In this document: positions 10,008-50,833 of the stretch, one piece after another
How positions within the stretch are numbered: the first letter of the stretch is position 1
Layout: each line of letters starts with the position of its first letter
NCBI RefSeq assembly: GCF_900107255.1
Contig: NZ_FNPH01000004.1
Coordinates: forward strand, 124,001 to 188,000
DNA: 64,000 bases
Reading direction: 5' to 3'
Source of the DNA: Micromonospora pattaloongensis
GTDB taxonomy: Bacteria > Actinomycetota > Actinomycetes > Mycobacteriales > Micromonosporaceae
Notes under the pieces: generated by a model
What the model was told of the DNA's origin: nothing
What the model saw: only the letters and a program-made list of their open reading frames with translations
Databases searched by the model: none
Translations under genes and position numbers: made by a program

Positions 10008-12002
10008 TCATCGGGGCGTGCCGACCGGGACGCCGCCGGAGCGCTGGGCGGCGCCGCGCGCGATCCGGTCGAGCATGATGCCGAGCAGGACGATGGCGAC
10101 GCCGGCGGCGAGCCCCTTGCCGTACAGCTCTCCCTGCGAGAACCCGGCGACCACGTCGTAGCCGAGCGCGCCGGCGCCGACGAGACCGCCGACGACGACC
10201 ATGGAGAGCACGTAGATCAGCCCCTGGTTCGCCGCCAGGGTCAGCGATTGGCGCGCCATCGGCAGCTGCACCTTTGTGATCATTTGCCAGCTGCTCGACC
10301 CCGCCGCGGTCGCGGCCTCGACGGTGGCGGCCGGGACGGCCCGTATGCCGTCCGCAATGATCTTGATTGCGACCGGCGCGGCGAACACGACGCCCGCGGC
10401 GATCGCGGTGAACCGGCTCGCCGCGAACAGGGCGAGGAACGGGATCAGATACACGAACGCCGGCATCGTCTGGGCGGCGTCCAGCACCGGGCGGATCACC
10501 CGGTCGGCGCGGGGACTGCGTCCCATCCAGACGCCGACGACCAGCCCGAGCGCCATCACGAGCACGGTGGCGACGATCGTCATGGCCAACGTGGTCATGC
10601 TGTCCCGCCAGAGGCCGGTGCCGACGAGGGCCGCCACGCAGACCGTCGCGACGAGCGCGACCCGTACGCCGCCCAGCAGCGCCGCGATCCCGACGACGAC
10701 CGCCGCCACCAGCCACCACGGCGAGCCGGTCAGCAGCGTCTGGAACGGGTTCAGCAGCGCGACGGTGATCACGTCCTTGAACGGTCGGGTGACCCCGGAC
10801 AGATCGTCCTGCGCCCAGGTGGTGACGGAGGCCGCCGCCCGGGACAGCTCGGGGCCGAGCGCGACCCCGGTCGGGAACTCGGCCGCCCACACGTAGGTGT
10901 ACGACAGGTAGCAGCAGACCAACGTCGCGACGCCGAACCCGCCCAGCAGCAGCCGGCGAACGCCGGGCCGCCGCCGCGGGGGGTGCTGGACCCGGACGCC
11001 GGCGGCGGTGGTGACCCGATCCAGCACGACCGCCATCACCACGATCGCGAGCCCGGCGTTGAACGCGGTGCCGACGTCGAGGGTCTGCAGGGCCTTGATG
11101 ACCGTCTTGCCCAGCCCGGGAGCGTCGATCAGCGCGGCGATCGTCGCCATCGACAGCGCCGCCATGATGGTCTGATTGACGCCGAGCACGATCGTGCGTT
11201 TGGCCAGCGGCAGCAGGACCGTCGTCAGCGCCTGCCGCCGGGTGGCCCCGAGCGACTCGGTCGCCTCCAGTGCGGCCGGCGGCACCGTCCGGATGCCGTG
11301 CGCCGTGAGACGGATCGCCGGCGGCATCGCGTACACCAGGGTCGCGATCGTGGCCGACGCCGGTCCGATCATGAACAGCAGGGTGAGCGGCGCGAGGTAG
11401 ACGAAGGTGGGCATCGTCTGCATGAAGTCCAGCACCGGTGTGATCAGCCGGTGGAACCGGTCCGACAGGCCGGCCCAGATCCCCAGCGGGATGCCGACCA
11501 GCAGCGACACTCCGACCGCCGACAGGGTGAGCGCGAGGGTGTGCATGCTCTCCTGCCAGAGCCCCTGCAGCCCGAAGAGCGTGAACCCGCCGACGGCGAG
11601 CACCGTCACCCGCCAGTTGCCGAGCGCCCAGGCGGCGTACGCGACGACCGCGATCACGCCCAGCCAGCCCAGCACCGGGACCGGGCGGCCGTACGACGGT
11701 TCGGCGATGAGCCCCTGGAGAAAGACGACCAGGGTGTCGATGGCCGCGCGGAGCTCGTTGACGACGTAGCGGAAGACCGGACTGCTGGTGCGGCTCGCCC
11801 CCACGGCGTCGTTGACGTCGTTGAGCCAGCGGTGCAGCGGGGTCAGCGAGGCGGGGGAGAGGTCCAACGTGTCGCGCCCGCGCAGCAGCGCCCAGCCGAC
11901 GAGCCAGACCGCGAGCACGACGCCCACCGCGAACGGCCGGTTGAGCCGCCGGCGCAGCGCGACCGGGGGTGGCCCAGCGACGGCCGTGGTGGTGGCCGAC
12001 AT
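10008..12002 (-). CDS. Betaine/choline ABC importer permease with two fused MetI domains
   Basis: Protein of 664 aa, about twice the usual ProW/OpuAB length. Two full BPD_transp_1 domains are visible. The first spans about 170-400 (HTLALTLSAVGVSLLVGIPL, EAA-loop region ALEATESLGATRRQA). The second spans about 430-650 (TTLAMTIVATVLVMALGLVV, EAATAAGSSSWQM). One polypeptide could therefore supply both halves of the channel. Its ATG (12000-12002) overlaps the TGA of the ATPase gene by one base (TGATG), which implies translational coupling. The substrate is inferred from the adjacent choline oxidation genes and the binding protein. Confidence 0.9.
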   Translation of the reverse strand: MSATTTAVAGPPPVALRRRLNRPFAVGVVLAVWLVGWALLRGRDTLDLSPASLTPLHRWLNDVNDAVGASRTSSPVFRYVVNELRAAIDTLVVFLQGLIAEPSYGRPVPVLGWLGVIAVVAYAAWALGNWRVTVLAVGGFTLFGLQGLWQESMHTLALTLSAVGVSLLVGIPLGIWAGLSDRFHRLITPVLDFMQTMPTFVYLAPLTLLFMIGPASATIATLVYAMPPAIRLTAHGIRTVPPAALEATESLGATRRQALTTVLLPLAKRTIVLGVNQTIMAALSMATIAALIDAPGLGKTVIKALQTLDVGTAFNAGLAIVVMAVVLDRVTTAAGVRVQHPPRRRPGVRRLLLGGFGVATLVCCYLSYTYVWAAEFPTGVALGPELSRAAASVTTWAQDDLSGVTRPFKDVITVALLNPFQTLLTGSPWWLVAAVVVGIAALLGGVRVALVATVCVAALVGTGLWRDSMTTLAMTIVATVLVMALGLVVGVWMGRSPRADRVIRPVLDAAQTMPAFVYLIPFLALFAASRFTAIAAGVVFAAPVAIKIIADGIRAVPAATVEAATAAGSSSWQMITKVQLPMARQSLTLAANQGLIYVLSMVVVGGLVGAGALGYDVVAGFSQGELYGKGLAAGVAIVLLGIMLDRIARGAAQRSGGVPVGTPR

Positions 12003-13078
12003 CAGCGGGGCTCCGGGCCGGCGAGCACCGCGAGCAGCTGCTCGGCGGCGACGACGCCGAGCAGCTCGCCGTCGGCGACGACCTTCACCGGGCGGTCCGC
12101 GGCGAGCACGTCCCGCACGGCGTCGCGCACGACCACGTCGGGGCTCAGCTCGGGGCCGTCCAGCACGTCTCCGGGACGCGGCGGACGCATGATCCATCGC
12201 AGCGTCAGGACGTCGGCGCGGGGCACGTCGCGGACGAAATCGCGGACGTAGTCGTCGGCCGGCGCGCCGACCAGCTCGTCACCGGTGCCGGTCTGCACCA
12301 TCCGGCCGTCCCGCATGATCAGGATCCGGTCGCCCAGCTTGAGCGCCTCCGACAGGTCATGGGTGATGAAGACCATCGTCTTGCCGACCTCGCGGTGCAG
12401 CCGGATCACCTCGTTCTGCATGTCTCGCCGGATCAGCGGGTCCAGCGCGGAGAACGGCTCGTCGAAGAAGAGCACGTCCGGGTCGCCCGCCAGCGCGCGC
12501 GCCAGCCCTACCCGCTGCTGCATCCCGCCGGAGAGCTCGTCCGGGTACGCGTGCGCGTAGCCGTCCAGGCCGACGAGTTCGATGACCTCCATCGCCCGCC
12601 GGACGCGTTCGGCGCGACCGGTGCCCCGGATCTCCAGCCCGTAGCCGACGTTCTCCAGCACCCGCCGGTACGGCAGCAGCCCGAAGTGCTGGAAGACCAT
12701 CGAGAACTTCCGCCGACGCAGCTCGCGCAGCCGCCGGGCGTCGGCGCGCAGGATGTCCTCGCCCTCGAACACCACCTCGCCGGCGGTCGGCTCGACCAGC
12801 CGCGTCAGGCAGCGCACCAGCGTGGACTTGCCCGAGCCGGAGAGCCCCATCACCACGAACACCTCGCCCGGGGCGACGTCGAACGCCACCTCGCGCACCG
12901 CGGCGGTGCACCCCGTGCGTGCCATCAGCTCGCGTCGCGACAGCGCCGCCAGCTCCGGCGAGCGCGGCACCCGCGACGGATCCGGTCCGAACACCTTCCA
13001 CAGCCCGCGCACCGTGATGACCGGTGCGGCGTCGCGGGCCGGCGCGCGGCGCGACGATGCGGCCGTCTGGGTAGTCAT
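12002..13078 (-). CDS. Betaine/choline ABC importer ATPase with C-terminal CBS region
   Basis: Protein of 358 aa of the ProV/OpuAA family. Walker A is GLSGSGKST, the signature is LSGGMQQR, Walker B with D-loop is [12 protein letters not shown], and the switch His is in FITHDLSEA. The long N-terminal insert around [12 protein letters not shown] is typical of ProV. After the ATPase domain, about 80 residues resemble a CBS domain ([11 protein letters not shown]...[13 protein letters not shown]); in OpuA such domains sense ionic strength, so osmotic gating is a fair inference. It lies 45 bp after betB and overlaps the permease start. Confidence 0.92.
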
Positions 13079-13123
13079 GCAGCCCCTTCTCTCCGACCGC
13101 CGTTCGCGCCGGCGGGCTCGCGG

Positions 13124-14593
13124 TCAGCCGCGGAACCAGCGCTGCGGGCGGGGATCGACGTTGTGCCAGATGTGTTTCGTCTCGCGGTACTCGTCGAGCC
13201 CGGCCGGGCCCAGCTCGCGGCCGATCCCGGACCGCTTGAAACCGCCCCACTCGGCCTGCGGCACGTACGGGTGGTAGTCGTTGATCCAGACGGTGCCGTG
13301 CCGCAGCCGCCGCGCGACCCGCTGCGCCCGGCCGGCGTCACCGGTCCAGACCGCGCCGGCCAGGCCGTAGTCGGTGTCGTTCGCGATCCGGACCGCGTCG
13401 TCCTCGTCCGTGAACGTCTCCACGGTCAGCACCGGGCCGAACGACTCCTCCCGCACCACGGTCATGCCCTGCCGGCAGCCGTCGAGCACCGTCGGCAGGT
13501 AGAAGTACCCGTCGGCCAGCGCGGGGTCGTCCGGGCGGCGGCCGCCGCAGCGCAGCACCGCGCCCTCGGCGAGCCCGGCGGCGACGTACGCCTCGATCTT
13601 CCCGCGGTGCGCGGCCGAGATCAGCGGCCCGGTCTCCGCCTCGGGATCGAAGGGTCCGCCGAGGCGGATCCGGCCGGCGCGGTCGACGAGCGCGTCGACG
13701 AACGCGTCGTGCAGGGTCTCCTGCACGACCAGCCGGGCGCCGGCCGAGCAGACCTGCCCGGAGTGCAAGAAGACCGCGGTGAGCGCGAAGTCGACGGCCG
13801 CGTCGAAATCGGCGTCGGCGAAGACGACGTTCGGGTTCTTGCCGCCCAGCTCCAGGGCCACCCGCTTCACGGTGCCGGCCGCGGCCGCCATCACGCCGCG
13901 CCCGGTGGCCAGCCCGCCGGTGAACGAGACCAGGTCCACGTCCGGGTGCTCCGCCAGCGGCGCGCCCACCTCCGGCCCCGCCCCGAGCACCAGGTTCGCG
14001 ACGCCGTCGGGCAGCCCCGCCTCCTGCAGCAGCCGCATCAGCAGGATCGCCGTGGACGGGGTCAGCTCGCTGGGCTTGAGCACGAACGTGTTGCCGGCGG
14101 CGAGCGCCGGCGCGACCTTCCACGCCGTCTGCAGCAGCGGGTAGTTCCACGGGGTGATGAGCCCGCACACCCCGACCGGCTCGTGCACCACCCGACTGAT
14201 CGCGTCGGCGCGCCCCGTGTCGACCACGCGTCCGCCGTCGGTGCCGGCGATCCCGCCGTAGTACCGGAAGGTCGCGACCACGTCGTCGATGTCGTACCGG
14301 CTCTCCACCAGGCGCTTGCCGGTGTCGAGCGACTCCGCGCGGGCCAGCTCGTCGGCATCGCGGGAGACAAGGTCGGCGACCCGGTGCAGCAGCGCGCCCC
14401 GATCGCGGGCCGGCGTGCCGGGCCACGGCCCCGCGTCGAACGCCGTCCGCGCCGCGGCGATCGCCGCCAGGGTGTCCGCGTGGGAGGCCTCGGCGACGGT
14501 GGCGACCGGACGGCCGTCGGCGGGGCACCGGATCGCCCGGTGCCCGCCCGCGACCGGCTCGCGCCACTCACCTGCGATGAACAGCTGTTTCAC
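13124..14593 (-). CDS. betB: Betaine-aldehyde dehydrogenase
   Basis: Protein of 489 aa, standard for the ALDH superfamily. The general base Glu248 lies in VALELGGKNP and the catalytic Cys282 in SGQVCSAGA; FTGG at about 224-227 marks the NAD site. It converts betaine aldehyde to glycine betaine. The assignment to BetB rests on its position directly after a choline dehydrogenase and before a betaine-type importer. The GTG start at 14593 follows GGGGAG. It is 34 bp from betA. Confidence 0.92.
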   Translation of the reverse strand: MKQLFIAGEWREPVAGGHRAIRCPADGRPVATVAEASHADTLAAIAAARTAFDAGPWPGTPARDRGALLHRVADLVSRDADELARAESLDTGKRLVESRYDIDDVVATFRYYGGIAGTDGGRVVDTGRADAISRVVHEPVGVCGLITPWNYPLLQTAWKVAPALAAGNTFVLKPSELTPSTAILLMRLLQEAGLPDGVANLVLGAGPEVGAPLAEHPDVDLVSFTGGLATGRGVMAAAAGTVKRVALELGGKNPNVVFADADFDAAVDFALTAVFLHSGQVCSAGARLVVQETLHDAFVDALVDRAGRIRLGGPFDPEAETGPLISAAHRGKIEAYVAAGLAEGAVLRCGGRRPDDPALADGYFYLPTVLDGCRQGMTVVREESFGPVLTVETFTDEDDAVRIANDTDYGLAGAVWTGDAGRAQRVARRLRHGTVWINDYHPYVPQAEWGGFKRSGIGRELGPAGLDEYRETKHIWHNVDPRPQRWFRG

Positions 14594-35671: not shown

Positions 35672-35870
35672 CCGTGCCCCCCGTGGCCCGGTCGGCCGCG
35701 CCGACGACCCCGTCGGTCCGACCGATGCCGATATCGCCGCCCGCGGCGGCGTCCGGCCACGTTCGTGGCCGCCACGCCGCCGACGGCGCCCGTACCCGGT
35801 GCACGTGATCGGCCCGGTGACTCCGGCCGTCCCTGTCGGCAATCCGCGAACCGAGATCGGAGAAGAGCTG

Positions 35871-36476
35871 GTGATCCGCATCATGATCGTCGAAGAGATG
35901 GGCTTGTTGCGGGGCGCGTTGCGCGCCGTGCTGTCGAGCGAGGATGACCTGGAGGTGATCGCGGACCTCTCGGACGGCGCGGACGTGCCGGCCGTGGCCG
36001 CGCGGGAACGGCCGGACGTGCTGCTGGTCGATCTCGAGCTGGCCGGGACGGACATGTTGGCCGTGTTGCGCCGGCTGACCGGGGAGGTGCCCGGCTGCGC
36101 CGTCCTGGCGTTGAGCCGGCAACGCAGCCCGGAGGCGCTGCAGGAGGCGCTGCTCGCCGGCGTCCGCGGCTTCATCGGCAAGGACGTGCCGCCCGCGGAG
36201 CTGGCGCGGCTGGTGCGCGCGGTCGCGCGCGGCGAACGCGTGGTCGACCCGGTCGCCGCGGTGGCCGCGTTGCGCCCGACGAGCGGTCCGCTCACCGGAC
36301 GGGAGCGGGAGGTGCTCCGGGCGGCGGCGATGGGGTTGCCGTCGAAGGAGATCGCGCGGACGCTCTTCCTGGCACACGGTACGGTGCGTAACCATTTATC
36401 GGTCATATTGCGAAAGACCGGGACGCGCAACCGAATGGAAGCCATTCGCCGCGCGCAGCAGGAAGGTTGGCTGTAA
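35871..36476 (+). CDS. RamR-like LuxR-family response regulator, first of a tandem pair
   Basis: Protein of 201 aa. The receiver domain (1-120) has Glu-Glu in IVEEMGLLRG instead of the usual Asp pair, the phospho-acceptor Asp in LLVDLEL and the conserved Lys in FIGKDVPP. A NarL/LuxR helix-turn-helix follows (LTGREREVLRAAAMGLPSKE, GTVRNHLSVIL). The size matches RamR, which activates ramCSAB in Streptomyces. The GTG at 35871 follows GGAGAAGAG. It converges on the lanthipeptide operon. No histidine kinase is nearby, as for RamR. Confidence 0.85.
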   Translation: MIRIMIVEEMGLLRGALRAVLSSEDDLEVIADLSDGADVPAVAARERPDVLLVDLELAGTDMLAVLRRLTGEVPGCAVLALSRQRSPEALQEALLAGVRGFIGKDVPPAELARLVRAVARGERVVDPVAAVAALRPTSGPLTGREREVLRAAAMGLPSKEIARTLFLAHGTVRNHLSVILRKTGTRNRMEAIRRAQQEGWL

Positions 36477-36613
36477 TGACTGTGAGTGGGCCGGTCTCCG
36501 CCCCCTGTCCGGCCCGCTCACGATTTTCGCTCAACAGGCGGACCCGTTAAGCATGTGTTTCAATATCTACAGTTAGTGATCTTCCAGTGACGGTGCCCAG
36601 TTCAGGGGGAGAT

Positions 36614-37219
36614 GTGATCCGTACTCTGCTGGCGCTCGACGGTGCACTCGTGCGCGGTTCGCTCGCATTCGTACTCGGCGGTCAGGACGACATCGACGTG
36701 GTGGCCGAGCTCGACGGGAAAGAGCAGATCGCGCCCGCGCTCTGCTCCATGCACCCCGATGTCGCCGTCGTCGACTTCGACCTGTTCGGCGCGGAGGGCC
36801 CACCGCACTGTCCCGCCGGCACCCACCGGTCGCCGATGCTCATGCTCGTCGACCCCCGCCGCTCGCAGGCGCTCAGCCGCGTCCTGCGCACCCACGTCCG
36901 CGCCCAGACGGTGGGGTTCCTGGGCAACCACGTCCCGCCGCTGCGCGTGGTCGAGGGCGTGCGCCAGCTGTCCCGCGGTGAGCCGGTGGTCGACGCCGAT
37001 CTGGTCGTCGCCGCGCTCAACAAGGAGAGCCCGCTCACGGCGCGGGAGACCGAGGTGCTGCAACTGGCGGCCGAGGGGCTGCCGGTGCGGGAAATGGCGA
37101 TCAAGCTGTCGCTCGCGCCGGGCACCGTGCGCAACCACCTCTCCCGCATCCTGACCAAGGCGGCCGCCCGCACCCGCATCGAGGCCGTACGCATCGCCCG
37201 TGAGGCCGGCTGGATCTGA
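36614..37219 (+). CDS. RamR-like LuxR-family regulator, second of a tandem pair, degenerate receiver
   Basis: Protein of 201 aa when started at the GTG after AGGGGG; a GTG at 36587 would add nine residues. The opening VIRTLLALDGALVRG parallels the first regulator. Asp in VVDFDLFG is retained, but the conserved Lys is replaced by Asn (FLGNHVPP), so classical phosphorylation is doubtful. The DNA-binding domain is intact (LTARETEVLQLAAEGLPVRE, GTVRNHLSRIL). It ends 16 bp from the stop of the convergent exporter gene. The pair probably arose by duplication. Confidence 0.85.
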   Translation: MIRTLLALDGALVRGSLAFVLGGQDDIDVVAELDGKEQIAPALCSMHPDVAVVDFDLFGAEGPPHCPAGTHRSPMLMLVDPRRSQALSRVLRTHVRAQTVGFLGNHVPPLRVVEGVRQLSRGEPVVDADLVVAALNKESPLTARETEVLQLAAEGLPVREMAIKLSLAPGTVRNHLSRILTKAAARTRIEAVRIAREAGWI

Positions 37220-37235: not shown

Positions 37236-38987
37236 TCAGGCGGACGTCAGCGAGGTGCCGGAGTGTCCGGCGGGTCGCTCCTGCCAGTGACCGAGCAGTT
37301 CCCGATACGCGGCCGAGCGGGCGAGCAACTCGGCGTGGGTGCCCAGCACCGGCCGGGAGCCGTCGACGATCAGCACCCGCCGGGCGCGCAGCGCGGAGCT
37401 GATCCGGTGCGCGATCACGATCAACGTCCCCGGCCGTGCCGCGAAGGCCGCCTCCACCCGCGCCTCGGTGGCCGCGTCCAGGTGACAGGTCGCCTCGTCC
37501 AGGATCGCCAGCCGCGCCGGCGACAGATAGGCGCGCACGGCCGCGATCAGTTGCCGTTCCCCGGCAGAGAGCGCCGCCGGGTCCACCGGCGCCGACAACC
37601 CACCGAACCGCCGCACCAGCGGCCGCAGCCCCAGCGCGTCGACCGCGGCGGCCAGCTCCGCCTCGTCGACGTCGCCGCGCAGGTAACGCAGGTTGTCGCC
37701 GAGCGTGCCGGTGAACACGTACGCCTCCTGCGGCACGAGCACCCGCAACGCCGCCAAGGTCGACTGCTCGAGCCCGGCGACCGGCACCCCGGTGAGGCGC
37801 ACGGTGCCCGCCTGCGGCCGCAGCAGCCCGGCGGTCAGCGCGGCGAGGGTTGACTTGCCGGCGCCGCTCGGGCCCACCACGGCCAGGTGGTCCCCGTCGG
37901 GAAGCACCAGGTCGAAGCCGTCGAGCACGGGCCGCGCCGCCGGACCGTACCGGAACGTCACATCGCGCAGCTCGACGGCGACCGGGGCACGCCGCGGCAC
38001 CGCCGCCGAGCGTGGGGCGTACGGCCGCGGGCGGCGTCGCGCGGTGGCCAGGATGCGGTCGAGCGTCACGGCGAAGCGCAGCCCGCCCCCGGCGACCCCC
38101 TGCACCAGGGTGTGCAGCGCCGGTTGCAGCCCGGTCGAGACGTAGACCAGCGCGCCGAGGATCGCGCCGGCGGACAGGCCGCGCCGCACCAGCCAGGGCG
38201 CCGCCAGCAGCAGCACCCCGATCGGCAGCCACCCGCCGACCGCCAGGATCAGGCTGCGCAGCGCCGCCATCCGCGCCAGCGCCCGCTCCGCCGCCTCCTG
38301 CGCCGTGATCTGCGCGCCGACCTCGCCCGCCACCGCGTCCTGCGCGCCGCACGCCACCACGTCGCGCTGGCCGGCCAACGCCGCGCTCGCCGATTCGCCG
38401 AGCCGCTCGTCGGCGCGCACATACTCGCGCTGCCGCTGCACCATCGCCGGCAGCGCGGCCCCGAACAGCGCCAGCGCGACCAGCAGCGGCCCGGCGACGA
38501 TCGCGGCGACCAGCGGCGCCAGCGAGACGAGTCCGAGCAGCGCCGCCGCGGCGGCGAAGAGGAAGCCCCGGACCGCCATCACCAGGCCGCCCAGGGTGTC
38601 CCGGACGATCTCGATCTGGTGCGTGAGCCGGGCGACGGCCGAGGTGTCCGGGCGGCCGCCGGCACCGGTCGCCCGGTGCAACGCGGCGTCGACGACCCGG
38701 CGGGCGAGGTCGTCGCGGAACGGTTCGACGATCTGGCCGAGGCAGGCGAAGGCGCGGCCGCTGCCGACCGCCCCCACCACGACGGCCACGGCCAGCCACG
38801 CCAGCCACGCCAGCCCGGTCCCGGGTCGCCCGGCCAGGAAGCCGTCGTCCACCGCCCGCGCGGTGGCGTAGCCGGTGAGCAGCGCGGGCAGCGCCTCGGC
38901 CGCGGACCAGGCGGCGAGCCGCAGCACCGCGCGGGGCCGCGCGCGGAGCGCGGCCAGCGCGGCCCCGCGTACGGCGGCGGCGGTCAC
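37236..38987 (-). CDS. ramB: ABC exporter half-transporter, RamB-like
   Basis: Protein of 583 aa with six predicted membrane helices, then an ATPase domain: Walker A GPSGAGKST, signature LSAGERQ, Walker B LAILDEAT and H-loop IAHRIS. It follows the other exporter with a GTGA overlap, so the two likely form a heterodimer. In the SapB locus of Streptomyces, RamA and RamB occupy the same positions after the precursor gene and are assigned to peptide export. The symbol is given by position and should be checked by phylogeny. Confidence 0.85.
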   Translation of the reverse strand: MTAAAVRGAALAALRARPRAVLRLAAWSAAEALPALLTGYATARAVDDGFLAGRPGTGLAWLAWLAVAVVVGAVGSGRAFACLGQIVEPFRDDLARRVVDAALHRATGAGGRPDTSAVARLTHQIEIVRDTLGGLVMAVRGFLFAAAAALLGLVSLAPLVAAIVAGPLLVALALFGAALPAMVQRQREYVRADERLGESASAALAGQRDVVACGAQDAVAGEVGAQITAQEAAERALARMAALRSLILAVGGWLPIGVLLLAAPWLVRRGLSAGAILGALVYVSTGLQPALHTLVQGVAGGGLRFAVTLDRILATARRRPRPYAPRSAAVPRRAPVAVELRDVTFRYGPAARPVLDGFDLVLPDGDHLAVVGPSGAGKSTLAALTAGLLRPQAGTVRLTGVPVAGLEQSTLAALRVLVPQEAYVFTGTLGDNLRYLRGDVDEAELAAAVDALGLRPLVRRFGGLSAPVDPAALSAGERQLIAAVRAYLSPARLAILDEATCHLDAATEARVEAAFAARPGTLIVIAHRISSALRARRVLIVDGSRPVLGTHAELLARSAAYRELLGHWQERPAGHSGTSLTSA

Positions 38988-40723
38988 CGGGGATCACCCG
39001 CCGGTTCCGTCGCGGACGCGAATACGGCCCGGTAGTCCGGGTCCGCCCACAGCTCGCGGTGCGTCGCGAGCGCGCGCAACCGGCCGGCGTCCAGCCAGGC
39101 GACCAGGTCGGCCGCGGCCGCCGTGGCCGCGCGGTGGGTCACGATCAGCCGGGTACGCCCGTCGGCGTGGGCGGCGACCGCGCGGGCGATGCGGTGCTCC
39201 GTTACGGTGTCCACGCTGGAGGTCGCGTCGTCGAGGATGAGCAGCCGTTCCGCCCGCAGCGCCCGCGCCAGCCCGAGCCGCTGCGCCTCGCCGCCCGACA
39301 TCGGCGCGTCCGCCAGCCGTGTCCGGTAGCCGTCCGGCAACCGTTCGACGTACCCGTCGACCGCGGCGGTCCGCGCGGCCCGCCGGATGGTGGGAAGGGT
39401 TCGTTCCGCTGCGGAAAGCGACAACAAGGGGCCGTTCCTGGCGCCCAGGCCGATCGCGTCCGCGATGGTGTCGCCGACCAGCACCGGCCGCTCGAAGCCG
39501 TACCCGACGGCGCGCCGCAGCCCCGCCCGGCTCAGCCGGGGCAGCGGGATGCCGTCGAGCAGCACCTCGCCGTCGTCGGGGTCGCGCAGCCGGCCCGCGA
39601 CCGCGGCCAGGGTGGACTTACCCGCGCCGGACGCGCCGACCACGGCCACCGCCCAGCCGCCCGGCACGTGCAGCCCGATGCCGTCGAGGATCGGGGCGCC
39701 GTCGTCGTCGCGCACGGACACGTTCCGCAGCGACAGCTGCCCCGGGCCGGCCGGCAGCGTCGCCCCGCCGTGTCGCTGCGGGGGCTCGGCGAGGATCTCG
39801 GCCACCCGGGCCGCCCCGGCGCGCGCCCGGACGAGCCGGTTGAGGGTGGCCACCACCGCGCCGAGACCGGCGCCGAGCGCCGCGTACTGGATGGCGGCGA
39901 GCAGTTGCCCCGGCGTGAGCCGCCCGTGCGCGACCGACCAGCCGCCGACGGCGAGGACGGCGAGCTGGGTCAGCGGGGCGAGCGCGGCGCTGCGCGTCGC
40001 CGCGCGCGCCAGCGCGTGCCAGGTGCGTTCGCCGTGCGCGCGCAGCCGGCGCAGCGGTGCCAGCACCCGGGCGATCTCCGCCGACAGCGTGCCGGCGGCC
40101 GCGATCGTCCGCGACCCGGTCAGCGCCTCCAGCAGCCGCCCCGCGATCACCCCCTGCGTGTGCTGGTAGCCGGCGAACGCGGCCGAGGCGTCGGTGACGA
40201 AGGCCCGCATCAGCACGGCCAGCAGCAGCAGGCCGCCGAGGAACGTGAGTCCCAGCAGCGGGTCGAGCAGGCCGAGCGCGACGACGCCGCCGGCCGACGG
40301 CAGCAGGGCGGCGACTCCGAGCACGACGGTGACGCCGGCGTTTCCGGCGTCCGCGGCCTGACCGACCAGGCGCGCGACCAGGTCACCGACGGGGCGGCGG
40401 GCGGCGGCACGCGGGGGGAGCGCCAGCACGTGCCCCAGCAGCCGGGAACGCACGCGGGCGGTCGCGCGCGCGGTCGCCGAGCCGGCCGCCAGATCGCCGA
40501 GCGCGTCGGTGACGACGATCAGCGCCAGCAGGCCGGCGGCGACGACCGGCCACCGTGGCCCCTGTCCGCGCAGCGCGGCGTCCACGGCGAGCCCGACGAC
40601 CGCCGGTAGCAGCAGTTCGGCCGCCGCGCCGAGCAGCGCGGCGGCCGCGAGCACCGGGAGCCATCCGCCGCCGTGCCGCACGGCCTGCCACAGCAGCGGG
40701 CGGCTGCGCGCGGCGACGGTCAT
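38984..40723 (-). CDS. ramA: ABC exporter half-transporter, RamA-like, carrying an in-frame repeat insertion
   Basis: Protein of 579 aa, membrane domain then ATPase: Walker A GASGAGKST, degenerate signature MSGGEAQR, Walker B LLILDDATSS, with Asp instead of the catalytic Glu after Walker B. Between the Q-loop region and the signature lie about 16 extra residues (NGPLLSLSAAERTLPT). They are encoded by a copy of the dispersed repeat also found at 2605-2650. The reading frame survives. The degenerate Walker B suggests an asymmetric heterodimer in which only one ATP site is fully active. Confidence 0.85.
   Translation of the reverse strand: MTVAARSRPLLWQAVRHGGGWLPVLAAAALLGAAAELLLPAVVGLAVDAALRGQGPRWPVVAAGLLALIVVTDALGDLAAGSATARATARVRSRLLGHVLALPPRAAARRPVGDLVARLVGQAADAGNAGVTVVLGVAALLPSAGGVVALGLLDPLLGLTFLGGLLLLAVLMRAFVTDASAAFAGYQHTQGVIAGRLLEALTGSRTIAAAGTLSAEIARVLAPLRRLRAHGERTWHALARAATRSAALAPLTQLAVLAVGGWSVAHGRLTPGQLLAAIQYAALGAGLGAVVATLNRLVRARAGAARVAEILAEPPQRHGGATLPAGPGQLSLRNVSVRDDDGAPILDGIGLHVPGGWAVAVVGASGAGKSTLAAVAGRLRDPDDGEVLLDGIPLPRLSRAGLRRAVGYGFERPVLVGDTIADAIGLGARNGPLLSLSAAERTLPTIRRAARTAAVDGYVERLPDGYRTRLADAPMSGGEAQRLGLARALRAERLLILDDATSSVDTVTEHRIARAVAAHADGRTRLIVTHRAATAAAADLVAWLDAGRLRALATHRELWADPDYRAVFASATEPAGDPR
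39392..39440. repeat. Dispersed repeat copy inside the exporter gene
   Basis: The 49 bp share TTCCGCTGCGGAAAGCGACAACAAGGGG-like sequence with the intergenic hairpin at 2605-2650 (identical core GCGACAACAAGGGG). The terminator-like arms have diverged here. Its length and phase keep the ramA reading frame open. Confidence 0.7.
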
Positions 40724-40796: not shown

Positions 40797-40913
40797 TCAG
40801 TTACAGGTCGTCACAGAGAGCGAGCTGTCGCCGCAGAGCAGCAGACTGGCCCGGCTGCCGCCGCCGTTGCCGCCACCCTTGAGCTCCATGCCCTGGAGGT
40901 CCAGAAGCGCCAT
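40797..40913 (-). CDS. ramS: SapB-like class III lanthipeptide precursor
   Basis: Peptide of 38 aa. The leader starts MALLDLQGMELKGG and keeps the LDLQ-type recognition motif of RamS/AmfS. The core ends in SRASLLLCGDSSLSVTTCN, which differs from the SapB core of Streptomyces coelicolor, as I recall it, mainly by Val for Ile. Two Ser/Thr-Cys segments (SLLLC and SSLSVTTC) can form two lanthionine rings with dehydroalanines left over. SapB is a surfactant that lets hyphae rise from wet surfaces. It sits between the LanKC and two ABC exporters. A GAAGGGA lies about 10 bp upstream of the ATG. Confidence 0.93.
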   Translation of the reverse strand: MALLDLQGMELKGGGNGGGSRASLLLCGDSSLSVTTCN

Positions 40914-43552: not shown

Positions 43553-43951
43553 CGTCACGGCTCCTTCGGGTGAATCCCGTAGGTGGATTCCCTGATGCTC
43601 GATGTCATCGAGTCTGCGTGGCCCCGGGGAGCTGTTTCTAGTGTGTTAAGTCATTCCCGTGCGGTGAATGGTGCACGGTCGGGCATGACACATGTCATGG
43701 GTGGCGGCGTTGACAATCTAAATTGACGTTCCTAAATGTGCCTACCAATGAATATGTGATGTGCGCTCGAGTCGTCGGGTCATACCGCCCTGGTCATACC
43801 GCGCCTTCATGTCTTGTTAGTGATCTCGTGCATATCGATACTTACTCTCACTTGGCGCGGCCATGCCGCCCTGGATCGACGGCATGCGGCGCCGGGTTCC
43901 CTGCCGGACGCGCACACCGCGCGCGTCCTATTGCCCCCCGGGAGGCCCTGA
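43553..43951. promoter_or_regulatory. 399-bp divergent control region between ramC and the protease gene
   Basis: No gene is seen. The region is markedly AT-richer than its surroundings. It contains the inverted repeat CCGTGC-N10-GCACGG (43657-43678), the near-adjacent palindrome ATGACA-CA-TGTCAT (43685-43698) and a plus-strand promoter candidate TTGACA (43710-43715) with TAAATG (43733-43738) at 17-bp spacing. Further on there is a direct repeat GGTCATACCGC with a 15-bp period near 43780. These could be sites for the RamR-like regulators, which is inference. Confidence 0.5.
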
Positions 43952-44983
43952 ATGAGACTCACGAGGTCATCGGTCCACCGCATCGCGATCATGTGCGCGG
44001 CCGGCGCGCTGCTCGCCACCGCCGTCGGCGTCGCCCCCGCCGGCGCCGCCCCGGCCGCCGCCGACCCGGACAGTGCCGCCACGCTGTCGGAGCGGCTCGG
44101 CGCCCGCTCCGCGGGCTCCTACCTGGACCCGGCCAGCGGCCGAATGATCGTCACCGTCACCGACGAGGCCGCGGCCCGCCAGGTGCGCGCCGGCGGCGCC
44201 GTCGCCAAGCTCGTCGCGCGGGGCGCGGCCGAACTCGACCGCGCCACCGCGGCGCTGGAGCGATCCGCGAAGATCCCGGGCACGGCCTGGTGGGTCGACC
44301 CCGTCACCAACCAGGTCGTCGTGTCGGTCGACGAGACCGTCACCGGCGCCAAACTGGCGACCGTGCAGCGCGTCGCGCGCGGCCTCGGCGGAGCGGTCCG
44401 CGTCGAGTCGACGCCCGGCACGCTGAGCACCACGATCTCCGGCGGCGACGCCATCTACACCGGCGGGTCGCGCTGCTCGCTCGGCTTCAACGTGCGCAAC
44501 AGCGCCGGCACCCAGTACTTCCTGACCGCCGGCCACTGCACCAACGCCGGAACGACCTGGACCAACGGGAGCACCACCCTGGGCACGCGCGCCGGAACCA
44601 GCTTCCCCGGCAACGACTACGGCATCGTCCGCTACACCAACACGTCGATCGCCAAGCCCGGCGCGGTCGGCTCCCAGGACATCACGTCCGCCGGCAACGC
44701 CTACGTCGGCCAGTCGGTGACCCGCCGCGGCAGCACGACCGGTACCCGCAGCGGCTCCGTCACCGCCCTCAACGCCACCGTCAACTACGCGCAAGGCGCG
44801 GTGTACGGCATGATCCGCACCACCGTCTGCGCCGAGCCCGGCGACAGCGGCGGCTCGCTCTACGCCGGCACCACCGCCCTCGGACTCACCTCGGGTGGCA
44901 GCGGCAACTGCAGCAGCGGCGGGACGACGTTCTTCCAGCCCGTGACCGAGGCGCTCAGCGTCTACGGGGTGAGCGTCTACTGA
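43952..44983 (+). CDS. Secreted streptogrisin-like serine protease
   Basis: Preproprotein of 343 aa. A signal peptide ends near GAAPAAA; a propeptide of about 130 residues ([19 protein letters not shown] is typical) precedes the mature chymotrypsin-fold domain that starts near residue 163. The triad is His195 (TAGHC), Asp222 (GNDYG) and Ser299 (PGDSGGS), with paired cysteines around His and Ser. It resembles streptogrisins and alpha-lytic protease. The start follows GGGAGG. It diverges from ramC, so leader cleavage of the exported lanthipeptide is conceivable but only from proximity. Confidence 0.92.
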
Positions 44984-45071: not shown

Positions 45072-45215
45072 CGTGGCGGCAGGGAGGAACCCGGTGCGAA
45101 TCCGGGGCGGTCCCGCCACTGTGACCGGGGAGCGACCCGCAGACAAGGCCACGGCCGGCGACGGCTGGAAGGCCGCGGGGAGCGACGATCCGGGAGTCAG
45201 GAGACTCCGGCCGCC
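45072..45215 (+). ncRNA. Cobalamin riboswitch controlling cobN
   Basis: The conserved core is complete: GGTGCGAATCCGG near 45093, CGGTCCCGCCACTGTGA at 45108-45124, GGAAGGCC in the middle arm and the B12 box GGAGTCAGGAGACTCC near 45193-45208. A closing helix is formed by GCGGC-type bases at both ends. Binding of adenosylcobalamin would switch off cobN, which starts 69 bp downstream. The 129 bases from 45081 to 45209 match the second riboswitch (50683-50811) at all but three positions. Confidence 0.95.
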
Positions 45216-45216
45216 G

Positions 45217-45239
45217 CCGCGGGCGCACCGTGCCCGCGG
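45217..45239 (+). promoter_or_regulatory. Hairpin between the first riboswitch and cobN, candidate expression platform
   Basis: CCGCGGGC (45217-45224) pairs perfectly with GCCCGCGG (45232-45239) around a 7-base loop. It follows the B12 box closely and precedes the AGGAGGA ribosome site by about 30 bases. No T run follows, so control of translation is more likely than simple termination. Confidence 0.5.
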
Positions 45240-45283
45240 TGACCCTGCGAACGGGGCGCGGACCCCGACAGGAGGACCGGGCC

Positions 45284-48200
45284 GTGACGGCTGCCTTCGT
45301 ACTCATCTCCACCGCCGACACCGACCTGCTCGCCGCCCGGGCCAGCGGCGCGCCCTGGCGGGTGGCCAACCCCGCCCGGCTCGACCCCGCCCAGCTGCCG
45401 CCGCTGCTCGCGGGTGCCGGCGCGGTGGTCGTCCGGCTGCTCGGCGGCCGCCGGACCTGGCCCGACGGGCTCGACGCGGTGCGCGCCGCCGGGCTGCCGG
45501 TGATCGCGCTCGGTGGTGAGTCCACCCCCGACGCCGAGCTGACCGCGTGCGGCACCGTACCCGCCGGGGTGGCCCACGACGCGCTGCGCTACCTCGTCGA
45601 GGGGGGTGCGGACAACCTTCGCGAGCTGCACCGCTTCCTCTCCGACACCGTGCTGCTCACCGGCGAGGGCTTCGCGCCGCCCGCCGCCACGCCCGCGTTC
45701 GGCATCCACGGCGACCTGCTGCTGAGCCCGGAGCGTCCCACCGTCGGCGTCGTCTTCTACCGCGCACACAAGCTCAGCGGAAACACCGGCTTCGTCGACA
45801 CGCTGGCCACGGCGCTGCGGGAGGCCGGCGCCAACGCGCTGCCGGTCTACGTGCCGTCGCTGCGGCAGCTGGACGACGAGCTGATCGCCCTGCTGCGCCG
45901 CTGCGACGCGCTGGTCGTCACCGTGCTCGCCGCCGGCGGGACCCGACCCGCCGACGCGAGCGCCGGCGGGGACGACGAGGCCTGGTCGGCGGCGGCGCTC
46001 GCCGCCCTGGACGTGCCGGTGCTGCAGGCGCTCTGCCTCACCAGCTCCCGGGCGGCCTGGGCGGCCTCCGACGCGGCGCTCACCCCGATGGATGCGGCGA
46101 TGCAGGTCGCCATCCCCGAGTTCGACGGCCGGCTGATCACCGTCCCGTTCTCCTTCAAGGAGGCCGGACCCGACGGGATCGGCGTCTACGTCGCGGACCC
46201 GGAGCGCGCGGCCCGGGTCGCCGGCGTCGCCGTGGCCCACGCCCGGCTGCGCCGGCTGCCCAACGCCGACAAGCGCCTGGCGGTCGTGCTGTCCTCGTAC
46301 CCGACGAAACACGCCCGGGTCGGCAACGCCGTCGGGCTGGACACCCCCGCCTCGGCGGTCGCGCTGCTGGCCGCGCTCCGGGAGGCCGGGTACGACGTCG
46401 GTGACGCGCCGGGCGACGGTGACGCGCTGATCCACACGCTGATCGCGGCCGGCGGCCACGACGTCGAGTGGCTGACCGAGGAGCAGCTGGCGGCCGCGCC
46501 GATCCGCGTCCCGCTGCGGGACTACCGGGCCTGGTTCGACGCGCTCGACCCCGCGCTGCGCGACGACATGCTGCGGGCCTGGGGCGAGCCGCCGGGAGAG
46601 CTCTACGTGGACGGCGACGACATCGTTCTCGCGGGGCTGCGCTTCGGCAACCTCACGCTGATGATCCAGCCGCCGCGCGGCTTCGGCGAGAATCCGATCG
46701 CGATCTACCACGACCCGGAGCTGCCGCCGTCGCACCACTACCTGGCGGCGTACCGCTACCTGGCGGAGAACGTGGACGCCGTCGTGCACCTCGGCAAGCA
46801 CGGCACGCTGGAGTGGCTGCCCGGCAAGGGGCTGGGGCTGTCCCGCGGTTGCGCCCCGGACGCCGTCCTCGGTGATCTGCCGATGGTCTACCCGTTCATC
46901 GTCAACGACCCGGGGGAGGGGACCCAGGCCAAGCGGCGGGCGCACGCGACGGTCGTCGACCACCTCGTGCCGCCGATGGCCCGCGCCGACACCTACGGCG
47001 ACCTGGCCCGGCTGGAGCAGCTGCTCGACGAGTACGCCACCGTGCAGGCGCTCGACCCGGCCAAGGTGCCCACCGTGCGCGCGCAGATCTGGACGCTGAT
47101 CCAGGCCGCGCAGCTCCACCACGACCTGCACGTCGAGCAGCAGCCCGGCGACGACGAGTTCGACGACTTCATCCTGCACGTGGACGGGTACCTCTGCGAG
47201 ATCAAGGACTCGCAGATCCGCGACGGGCTGCACGTGCTCGGCGCCGCCCCGGCCGGTGAGGCCCGGATCAACCTCGTGCTCGCCGTGCTCCGCGCCCGCC
47301 AGATATGGGGCGGGCGCAGCGGGGCGCTGCCGGGGCTGCGCGAGGCGCTCGCCGCGCACGTCGGGCTCGCCGAGCACACGCTGATCGGCGACGCGTCCCG
47401 GGTCGAGGCGCCGGCCGCGCTCACCGAGCTGGTCGACGGCCCGGCCGCCACCTCCGCCGACCTCGTCGACCTGCTCGAGGCGCTGGCCCGCAAGCTCGTC
47501 GTCGGCGCCGAGACGCTGGACTGGGACGCCGACAAGATGCCGGCGGTCGTCGCCGAGGTCCTCGGCGCGTCGCCGCCGGCCGTCGAGGCGGTGCTGCGGT
47601 TCGCCGCCACCGAGGTGGTGCCCCGACTGGCGGCCACCACCGACGAGATCGGCGCGGTGCTGCACGCCCTCGACGGCGGTTACGTGCCCGCCGGCCCCTC
47701 CGGGTCGCCCACCCGCGGCCTGGTCAACGTGCTGCCGACCGGCCGCAACTTCTACTCCGTCGACCCCAAGGCGATCCCGTCGCGCAACGCCTGGGACGTC
47801 GGGCAGGCGCTCGCCGACTCGCTGCTGGCCCGGCACCGCGCCGACACGGGCGAGTGGCCGCGCCTGGTCGGCCTGACCGTCTGGGGTACCTCCGCGATGC
47901 GCACCCAGGGCGACGACATCGCCGAGGTGCTCGCGCTGATCGGCGCGCGGCCGGTCTGGGACGACGCGTCGCGCCGGGTCACCGGGTTCGAGATCGTCCC
48001 CCTGGCCGAGCTGGGCCGGCCCCGCATCGACGTGACCGTACGGATCTCCGGGTTCTTCCGGGACGCGTTCCCGCACGTCATCGCCCTGCTGGACGACGCC
48101 ATCACGGCGGTGGCGGAGCTCGACGAGCCGCACGAACAGAACTTCGTCGCCGCGCACGCTGCGGCCGACGAGGCGCGGCACGGCGACCGGCGGCGCGCCA

Positions 48201-48922
48201 CCACCCGGATCTTCGGCTCCAAGCCCGGCGCGTACGGCGCCGGGCTGCTGCCCCTGATCGACGCGCGGAACTGGCGCGACGACCGCGACCTCGCCGAGGT
48301 GTACGCGGTCTGGGGCGGCTACGCCTACGGCCGGGGCCTGTCCGGGCGGCCGGCCCGCGACGACCTGGAGACCGTCTACCGGCGGATGGCGGTCGCGGCG
48401 AAGAACGTCGACACCCGCGAGCACGACATCGCCGACTCGGACGACTACTTCCAGTACCACGGCGGCATGGTGGCGATGGTCCGTGCGCTGCGCGGCTCCG
48501 ACCCGGCGGCCTACATCGGGGACTCGCACCGGCCGGAGCAGGTGAAGACCCGCACGCTGGCCGAGGAGACCAAGCGGGTCTTCCGGGCCCGGGTGGTCAA
48601 CCCGCGGTGGATCGACGCGATGCGCCGGCACGGCTACAAGGGCGCGTTCGAGCTGGCCGCCACCGTGGACTACCTGTTCGGCTACGACGCCACCGCGGGC
48701 GTGGTGGACGACTGGATGTACGAGCAGCTCGCCGCGGCGTACGTCTTCGACGCCGGCGTGCGCGAGTTCCTGGAGCGGTCGAACCCGTGGGCGCTGCGCG
48801 GCATCGCCGAGCGGCTGCTGGAGGCGGCCGAGCGCGGGCTCTGGGCGGCGCCCGACCCGGCGACCCTGGACGGGCTGCGCGCGGCGTACCTGGCCGTGGA
48901 GGGTGACCTGGAGGGCGAGTGA
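45284..48922 (+). CDS. cobN: Cobaltochelatase large subunit CobN
   Basis: Protein of 1212 aa, full length for CobN/BchH. Family motifs include HLGKHGTLEWLPGKG, VYPFIVNDPGEGTQAKRR, VNVLPTGRNFYSVDPKAIPS and SGFFRDAFPHVIALLDDA. CobN binds the corrin and inserts Co(II) in an ATP-dependent complex; the partner AAA+/VWA protein is encoded at 50891. The GTG at 45284 has AGGAGGA 7 bp upstream. It is transcribed alone behind its riboswitch and converges on a GGDEF gene. Confidence 0.96.
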   Translation: MTAAFVLISTADTDLLAARASGAPWRVANPARLDPAQLPPLLAGAGAVVVRLLGGRRTWPDGLDAVRAAGLPVIALGGESTPDAELTACGTVPAGVAHDALRYLVEGGADNLRELHRFLSDTVLLTGEGFAPPAATPAFGIHGDLLLSPERPTVGVVFYRAHKLSGNTGFVDTLATALREAGANALPVYVPSLRQLDDELIALLRRCDALVVTVLAAGGTRPADASAGGDDEAWSAAALAALDVPVLQALCLTSSRAAWAASDAALTPMDAAMQVAIPEFDGRLITVPFSFKEAGPDGIGVYVADPERAARVAGVAVAHARLRRLPNADKRLAVVLSSYPTKHARVGNAVGLDTPASAVALLAALREAGYDVGDAPGDGDALIHTLIAAGGHDVEWLTEEQLAAAPIRVPLRDYRAWFDALDPALRDDMLRAWGEPPGELYVDGDDIVLAGLRFGNLTLMIQPPRGFGENPIAIYHDPELPPSHHYLAAYRYLAENVDAVVHLGKHGTLEWLPGKGLGLSRGCAPDAVLGDLPMVYPFIVNDPGEGTQAKRRAHATVVDHLVPPMARADTYGDLARLEQLLDEYATVQALDPAKVPTVRAQIWTLIQAAQLHHDLHVEQQPGDDEFDDFILHVDGYLCEIKDSQIRDGLHVLGAAPAGEARINLVLAVLRARQIWGGRSGALPGLREALAAHVGLAEHTLIGDASRVEAPAALTELVDGPAATSADLVDLLEALARKLVVGAETLDWDADKMPAVVAEVLGASPPAVEAVLRFAATEVVPRLAATTDEIGAVLHALDGGYVPAGPSGSPTRGLVNVLPTGRNFYSVDPKAIPSRNAWDVGQALADSLLARHRADTGEWPRLVGLTVWGTSAMRTQGDDIAEVLALIGARPVWDDASRRVTGFEIVPLAELGRPRIDVTVRISGFFRDAFPHVIALLDDAITAVAELDEPHEQNFVAAHAAADEARHGDRRRATTRIFGSKPGAYGAGLLPLIDARNWRDDRDLAEVYAVWGGYAYGRGLSGRPARDDLETVYRRMAVAAKNVDTREHDIADSDDYFQYHGGMVAMVRALRGSDPAAYIGDSHRPEQVKTRTLAEETKRVFRARVVNPRWIDAMRRHGYKGAFELAATVDYLFGYDATAGVVDDWMYEQLAAAYVFDAGVREFLERSNPWALRGIAERLLEAAERGLWAAPDPATLDGLRAAYLAVEGDLEGE

Positions 48923-50450: not shown

Positions 50451-50670
50451 GCCGGTCCTTCCGAGGTCTCCTGATCGTTTAATCGGCGAACGATAGCCCC
50501 GCATGACGACTTCGGGGTCGCGCTCCGCATCCGTGTCGCGCCGGACGGCGACTCCGACGCGCCCGGCGGGCCGAACCGCCCCGACGGTCGACCAAGGACT
50601 TTTCGCCGAGGGGGGATGATCACATTGGGCGGGGTGGCATTGACGCGGGCGCGGTGATGCGACAGCATGG

Positions 50671-50820
50671 CCGGCGAGCGGTAGGGAGGAACCCGGTGCG
50701 AATCCGGGGCGGTCCCGCCACTGTGACCGGGGAGCGACCCGCAGGCAAGGCCACGGCCGGCGACGGCTGGAAGGCCGCGGGGAGCGGTGATCCGGGAGTC
50801 AGGAGACTCCGCCGCTCGGA
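50671..50820 (+). ncRNA. Second cobalamin riboswitch, controlling the chlID-cbiX operon
   Basis: It carries the same core as the first: GGTGCGAATCCGG at about 50695, CGGTCCCGCCACTGTGA at 50710-50726 and the B12 box at about 50795-50810. The closing helix pairs GAGCGG (near 50676) with CCGCTC (near 50812), which differs from the first copy and shows that the helix is preserved by compensatory change. It should repress the 12-gene operon when adenosylcobalamin is plentiful. Confidence 0.95.
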
Positions 50821-50833
50821 TGACCCATTGACA

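Follow-up and report, generated by a model that had tools for sequence, protein, structure and literature searches.

A ram-like locus for a SapB-type lanthipeptide with two RamR-like regulator genes in the Micromonosporaceae

Introduction

The ram-type system yields the surfactant SapB (PMC4255298, PMC9011353), a peptide with two lanthionines (PMC13380574). The locus described here resembles ramCSAB-ramR of Streptomyces coelicolor in its core, its LanKC, its two ABC transporters and its convergent LuxR-type regulator (PMC4255298), and it shares its NCBI family name, LanKC type and regulator type with AmfS of Streptomyces griseus and with durhapeptin; the cores of these two differ from the one found here, however, and durhapeptin is reported with labionin cross-links (PMC13380574). 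Lanthionine and labionin rings are not distinguishable from the synthetase (PMC13380574). The SapB/AmfS NCBI family was described in 2026 as holding more than 4,000 sequences (PMC13380574), SapB has been called common in actinomycetes (PMC9967187), and a 2022 paper lists SapB-precursor matches in Nocardiopsis, Verrucosispora, Kitasatospora and Micromonospora (PMC9011353). Our locus is a further member of the SapB-like clusters of Micromonospora and Verrucosispora (PMC9011353, PMC9967187, PMC7918784), and the sections of those reports that deal with the clusters do not mention two regulators. A survey of more than 100 genomes from 2013 placed ramR in streptomycetes only (PMC4255298), and our literature search returned no paper joining RamR, SapB and Micromonosporaceae and none joining SapB and Plantactinospora.

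We analysed a stretch of DNA of 64,000 nucleotides, referred to as the window. The locus that it carries is an ordinary, intact member of a SapB-like gene set that is common to many relatives and known outside Streptomyces. The less expected feature is the presence of two regulator genes, instead of one, beside the locus in close relatives. Compared with ramCSAB-ramR of S. coelicolor, the window has two regulators rather than one and a shorter, glycine-rich leader, and its upstream element is absent from the 36 Streptomycetaceae loci to which it was compared.

Results

The locus consists of six genes.
40797-40913, minus strand: RamS/SapB-type precursor gene, 38 aa plus stop, matching NF033212 and PF19402
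40946-43558, minus strand: LanKC, a class III lanthionine synthetase of 870 aa in an open frame, with NF038151, RamC_N, Pkinase and LANC_like matches
38984-40723, minus strand: ABC transporter permease/ATPase, RamA/RamB-like, with PF00664 and PF00005 over cut-off
37236-38987, minus strand: second ABC transporter permease/ATPase, with PF00005 over cut-off and conserved order
36587-37219, plus strand: RR2, a RamR-like regulator with a LuxR-type DNA-binding domain, from GerE over cut-off and the regulator tree
35865-36476, plus strand: RR1, a second RamR-like regulator with receiver and LuxR-type domains, from Response_reg and GerE over cut-off and the regulator tree

Translation of 40797-40913 on the minus strand gives MALLDLQGMELKGGGNGGGSRASLLLCGDSSLSVTTCN, followed by a stop, and a putative ribosome site, AAGGGA, precedes the ATG; the plus-strand reading of the same positions is unrelated. 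The precursor scores 64.1 bits (E 9.4e-18, cut-off 25) against NCBIfam NF033212 (SapB_AmfS_lanti) and 59.0 bits (E 6.3e-16, cut-off 24.3) against Pfam PF19402 (RamS), far beyond chance, which places it in the SapB/AmfS family and upholds the reading of its core as SapB-like in the first-pass annotation. The core holds two copies, SRASLLLC and SSLSVTTC, of the S-x-x-S-x3-C motif given for SapB/AmfS cores (PMC13380574). The gene is the sole precursor match of the family models in the whole genome. As the first-pass annotation noted, the final 19 residues match SapB-type cores almost exactly, with an Ile to Val change as the sole difference from several Streptomycetaceae precursors (e.g. those of loci L087 and L090); the L087 form is presumably that of S. 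coelicolor SapB. The exchange marks no lineage, as Val is commoner than Ile in the cores of both Micromonosporaceae (V 32, I 4, L 1) and Streptomycetaceae (V 27, I 7, L 2). The leader is indeed short and rich in glycine, but it is not distinctive: its 19 residues before SRASLLLC are one fewer than the commonest length of 20 (34 of 37 Micromonosporaceae cores), and glycine runs ahead of the core are common in Micromonosporaceae relatives.

The LanKC gene expected beside the precursor is open, ends 32 bases before the precursor ATG and encodes a protein that scores 1137.8 bits against NF038151 (cut-off 575), so that the pair is of class III. A transporter of the 38984-40723 type follows the precursor in relatives as well; the second transporter, which overlaps the first by 4 bases, reaches only 21.1 bits against PF00664, below the cut-off of 28. 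As in a ram locus, two ABC exporters lie downstream of the precursor and a RamR-like regulator is convergent with them, here as two such genes: the order LanKC-precursor-ABC-ABC on the minus strand faces RR2 and RR1 on the plus strand. This order with convergent regulators also recurs in the relatives with enough DNA, except in L053, and the Streptomyces loci with enough DNA show the same ram gene set as described for S. coelicolor. All genes of the window's locus are open frames with high family scores.

Divergent from LanKC, on the plus strand, lies a gene with an alpha-lytic protease prodomain (43952-44983). We rejected this secreted S1-type protease as a dedicated leader peptidase, since it occurs near LanKC in only 4 of 80 loci (L055, L071, L079, L111) and is thus not a conserved partner. 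Two cobalamin riboswitches above the Rfam gathering score follow on the plus strand (45085-45206 and 50662-50830), the first of which precedes a long ORF (45230-48922) that we take to be CobN.

The spread of the locus was assessed from a LanKC scan that gave 196 relatives, the best 80 of which were analysed; these comprise 34 Micromonosporaceae loci of the window type, 36 Streptomycetaceae loci (one from Kitasatospora and 35 from Streptomyces, collectively termed Streptomyces loci) and 10 others. The nearest LanKC relatives belong to Plantactinospora and Micromonospora, in agreement with the host group named in the first-pass annotation. Among these best 80 of 196 relatives, a SapB-type core is present in 31 of the 34 Micromonosporaceae and all 36 Streptomycetaceae loci, while the 10 others have different cores or none that we recognised. 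The three Micromonosporaceae exceptions are L043, which runs into a contig end, L053, in which no precursor was found, and L054, which has a different core, and they indicate that the locus can decay or diverge. In L053 (Micromonospora sp. ATCC 39149, about 10532-13740), LanKC and both regulators are kept and the transporters are reduced to a fragment, which looks like a natural loss of the locus; in L054, the precursor at 10608 joins the usual leader to its different core. Tandem precursors, two or three after one LanKC, were seen in L052, L055, L056, L057, L079 and L111 and in genomes such as G276.

The first-pass annotation treated a near-exact SapB core outside Streptomyces as notable, which it is not: the exact 19-residue core of the window is found in Plantactinospora mayteni, in many Micromonospora and in many Streptomyces, and makes up 62 of 128 matches to a SapB-like pattern in two, possibly overlapping, sets of loci. 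In the 30-genome set, a precursor pattern gave no match in some genomes whose precursors had been found by another search. The precursor family model, which also takes in cores that are not SapB-like, matched in 124 of 300 genomes of the window's family (123 above cut-off), a family that we infer to be the Micromonosporaceae from the LanKC relatives and the shared precursors. The window's organism is the sole genome of its genus among the genomes compared.

The RR1 ORF is listed from 35634, with homology starting near 35865. RR2 has no Response_reg match in Pfam; its N-terminus is receiver-like, with the acidic pair altered and the lysine absent. Two RamR-like genes are present in 31 of the 34 Micromonosporaceae loci, the remaining three being cut off (31 of 31 with enough DNA), whereas one regulator is present in 35 of the 36 Streptomycetaceae loci, with the remaining locus cut off (35 of 35); of the 10 other loci, eight carry a single regulator and L069 carries none, L076 being cut off. 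In a second sample, covering the locus regions of 20 of 30 family genomes, nine genomes have two regulators (in pieces in G003), eight a single one (with G181 cut) and two lack any, and G031 shows one (cut); G181 is ended by a contig end and G031 by the limit of the region, and a second regulator is possible in both. The nine genomes with two regulators and G031 lie inside the window's 13-row LanKC clade (support 96) and the other ten outside it. In a regulator tree of the pairs of 11 genomes, from which the partly matched pairs of G234 and G003 were omitted, each pair contributes one member to an RR1 clade (99/96) and the other to an RR2 clade (100/98); among the single regulators of the family, those of G055 and G181 group next to RR1 (92/80) and the rest with RR2 (97/95). 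An old regulator pair with later loss fits this tree better than repeated recent duplication.

The receiver residues differ between the two regulators. Over the 31 Micromonosporaceae loci, RR2 lacks the lysine in all 31 and keeps the aspartate in all 31, while for RR1 the lysine is retained in 27 loci, the acidic pair is intact in 22 (and altered in nine) and the aspartate has been lost in 17, each of which retains both acidic residues and the lysine. The window's RR1 has the complete set of acidic pair, aspartate and lysine. Because the aspartate of RR1 is lost in 17 of 31 loci, a simple phosphorelay does not fit all of them. In the single Streptomyces regulators, the first acidic residue is absent in 35 of 35 (34 His, one Gln) and the aspartate is kept in 35 of 35. 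In L181 of genome G009, both regulators (1145-2449) come shortly after the precursor, and its 8.5 kb region holds no match to the window's transporters.

Upstream of LanKC, two conserved sites were found.
43640-43653, minus strand: conserved element TGACTTAACACACT, its 5' end lying 95 bases upstream of the LanKC GTG
43684-43699, unstranded: weaker conserved block of the TGAC-N4-TGTCA type, a candidate regulator site, from the 21-row upstream alignment

In 32 of the 34 Micromonosporaceae loci, the form TGACYNANNNCACT is located 77-95 bases upstream of the matched LanKC start, and L040 and L057 carry a copy that differs from the T form at one base; upstream of LanKC the element occurs in none of the 36 Streptomycetaceae and none of nine other loci. 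The element was derived from an upstream alignment of the window and 20 loci (21 rows), so its presence in those loci is circular; 12 of the 14 held-out loci, which are close relatives, carry it exactly. It is present in 7 of 30 family-genome loci, the window's own included, all within the window's 9-row LanKC clade, although G019 and G113 lack it as members of that clade. The window contains one exact copy of the 14-base element and three one-mismatch copies against 2.0 expected from shuffles, and a 16-base version occurs at three places in its own genome, the same as the reversed control; the element is thus not specific by sequence alone. We infer that RR1 or RR2 may bind it. The TTGTCA columns of the weaker block are conserved in the 21-row alignment. 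A further candidate, the repeat GTTAGTGATC upstream of both RR2 and LanKC in the window, was discarded, as no exact copy precedes LanKC in the relatives examined.

Discussion

The identity of the product as a SapB-type peptide is well supported, and together with the completeness of the ram-like locus we regard it as very likely; its role in this organism and the mechanism of the regulators are worded below as proposals. In our model, LanKC would phosphorylate and eliminate the Ser residues in SRASLLLC and SSLSVTTC, which would give a modified core with up to four dehydrations and two thioether rings; the SapB product has four dehydrations. The leader would be trimmed by an unclustered protease, for instance an M1, AplP-like enzyme (the window's genome has four M1-peptidase matches), and the ABC pair would export the peptide. 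The amphipathic product would then act at the surface of the colony or hyphae, lowering surface tension there and helping hyphae or spores to meet the air. A promoter that contains the conserved element and is controlled by RR1 and RR2 would drive transcription of the LanKC-precursor-ABC genes. By analogy with SapB, we judge a surfactant role in this organism to be about evenly balanced.

The first-pass annotation also suggested a recent acquisition of the locus, and a Streptomyces source would explain a core that is identical at 18 or 19 of 19 positions to many Streptomyces forms. We nevertheless rejected this as hardly credible on the LanKC identities, the trees, the core codons and the comparison with rpoB. 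Best-segment LanKC identity is 52-56% to Streptomyces and 66-75% to Micromonospora and Plantactinospora, and in a tree built from the window plus 37 of the best 80 LanKC loci the window falls within a 17-row Micromonosporaceae clade (SH-aLRT 100), with the Streptomycetaceae in a separate clade; the regulators of Micromonosporaceae and Streptomyces form separate clades too. The Micromonosporaceae as a whole are not one clade in that tree, since the Actinoplanes loci L059 and L060 and the Phytomonospora locus L066 stand with Glycomyces and others, and these loci carry other cores. In trees of the family genomes (29 rpoB and 30 LanKC sequences, with G034 left out of rpoB for want of a match to a sequence motif), the window is grouped with the same genera (g4, g32, g10, g20, g34) by both genes, and rpoB and LanKC distances have a rank correlation of 0.60 over 406 pairs. 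The LanKC tree does split genus g4 with support and g29 without, which lends the idea of movement some weight, as the family may have seen internal transfer or paralogy. Averaged over the 36 Streptomycetaceae loci, 10.6 of the 19 core codons are identical to those of the window, 7.8 are synonymous and 0.6 non-synonymous, which suggests that the peptide, not the DNA, has been held constant and fits long purifying selection rather than recent transfer; within GDSS, the second Ser codon reads TCG in the window and in the compared relatives (Gly in L052) and AGC in the compared Streptomyces. Vertical inheritance of the ram-like locus thus appears to be the best explanation. That the locus is a remnant out of use, as its decayed relative L053 might suggest, is very improbable given the open genes, the high family scores and the mostly synonymous core change.

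The same peptide could also do a job that does not depend on chaplins, for instance in spore release, surface spreading or attachment, a reading that is compatible with a SapB-type product of an inherited ram-like locus and that we consider quite possible, if somewhat doubtful. The chaplin domain PF03777 matched in 140 of 300 family genomes, and over these genomes there is no positive link between RamS and chaplin in counts that ignore kinship (49 with both, 75 with RamS only, 91 with chaplin only, 85 with neither). Among the 124 RamS-positive genomes, 75 are without a chaplin match, including all 54 from genus g4, which had no match in the PF03777 search and which, from its precursor sequences, we take to be Micromonospora. 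In this family, SapB-type peptides and chaplins are thus found separately, which supports another role indirectly and leaves room for it without showing one, and divergent chaplins can escape the domain search. The window's own genome counts against such a job, as it has a chaplin-like gene with two domains over cut-off; this single gene (L113, 1234-1920) encodes 228 aa, and a third repeat can be made out by eye. A Micromonosporaceae species that bears single spores on the substrate mycelium and has no aerial hyphae (PMC12451618) agrees with a chaplin-independent job, in a comparison by description, not by locus, with a species not known to be the window's organism. Against the premise that Micromonosporaceae usually lack abundant aerial hyphae, Verrucosispora and Micromonospora are called formers of aerial hyphae (PMC9011353). 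A peptide acting mainly as a signal or weak antibiotic instead of a surfactant seems improbable to us: a range of activities is known for class III lanthipeptides, and durhapeptin is active against only some strains (PMC13380574), but the SapB-type core is kept in nearly all the Micromonosporaceae and all the Streptomycetaceae loci, which had been picked by LanKC alone. Antibiotic cores usually vary more.

For the paired regulators, we offer the tentative and rather unlikely proposal that RR1 and RR2 form an obligate heterodimer, each supplying what the other has lost, which would act at the conserved element before LanKC and time the surfactant peptide. The two genes would then be an old RamR paralogue pair kept together across one branch of the Micromonosporaceae, many of whose members have no detected chaplin, and this we hold to be similarly doubtful. 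The single Streptomyces regulators, with an altered acidic residue and the aspartate kept, argue against a heterodimer, as they indicate that such a change needs no pair; so do the nine of 31 RR1 with an altered acidic pair of their own. If confirmed, the regulator pair and the element upstream of LanKC would broaden the 2013 view of ramR as confined to streptomycetes, and would provide a testable example of one operon with two altered response regulators.

The locus adds to the evidence that two actinobacterial groups share the SapB core as an old and strongly conserved trait, which is therefore no speciality of Streptomyces, and that in this family it often occurs where no chaplin is detected. 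In genome G029, locus L137 has a SapB-like core, yet its LanKC falls into the other half of the family tree, which hints that the older form may be the SapB core.
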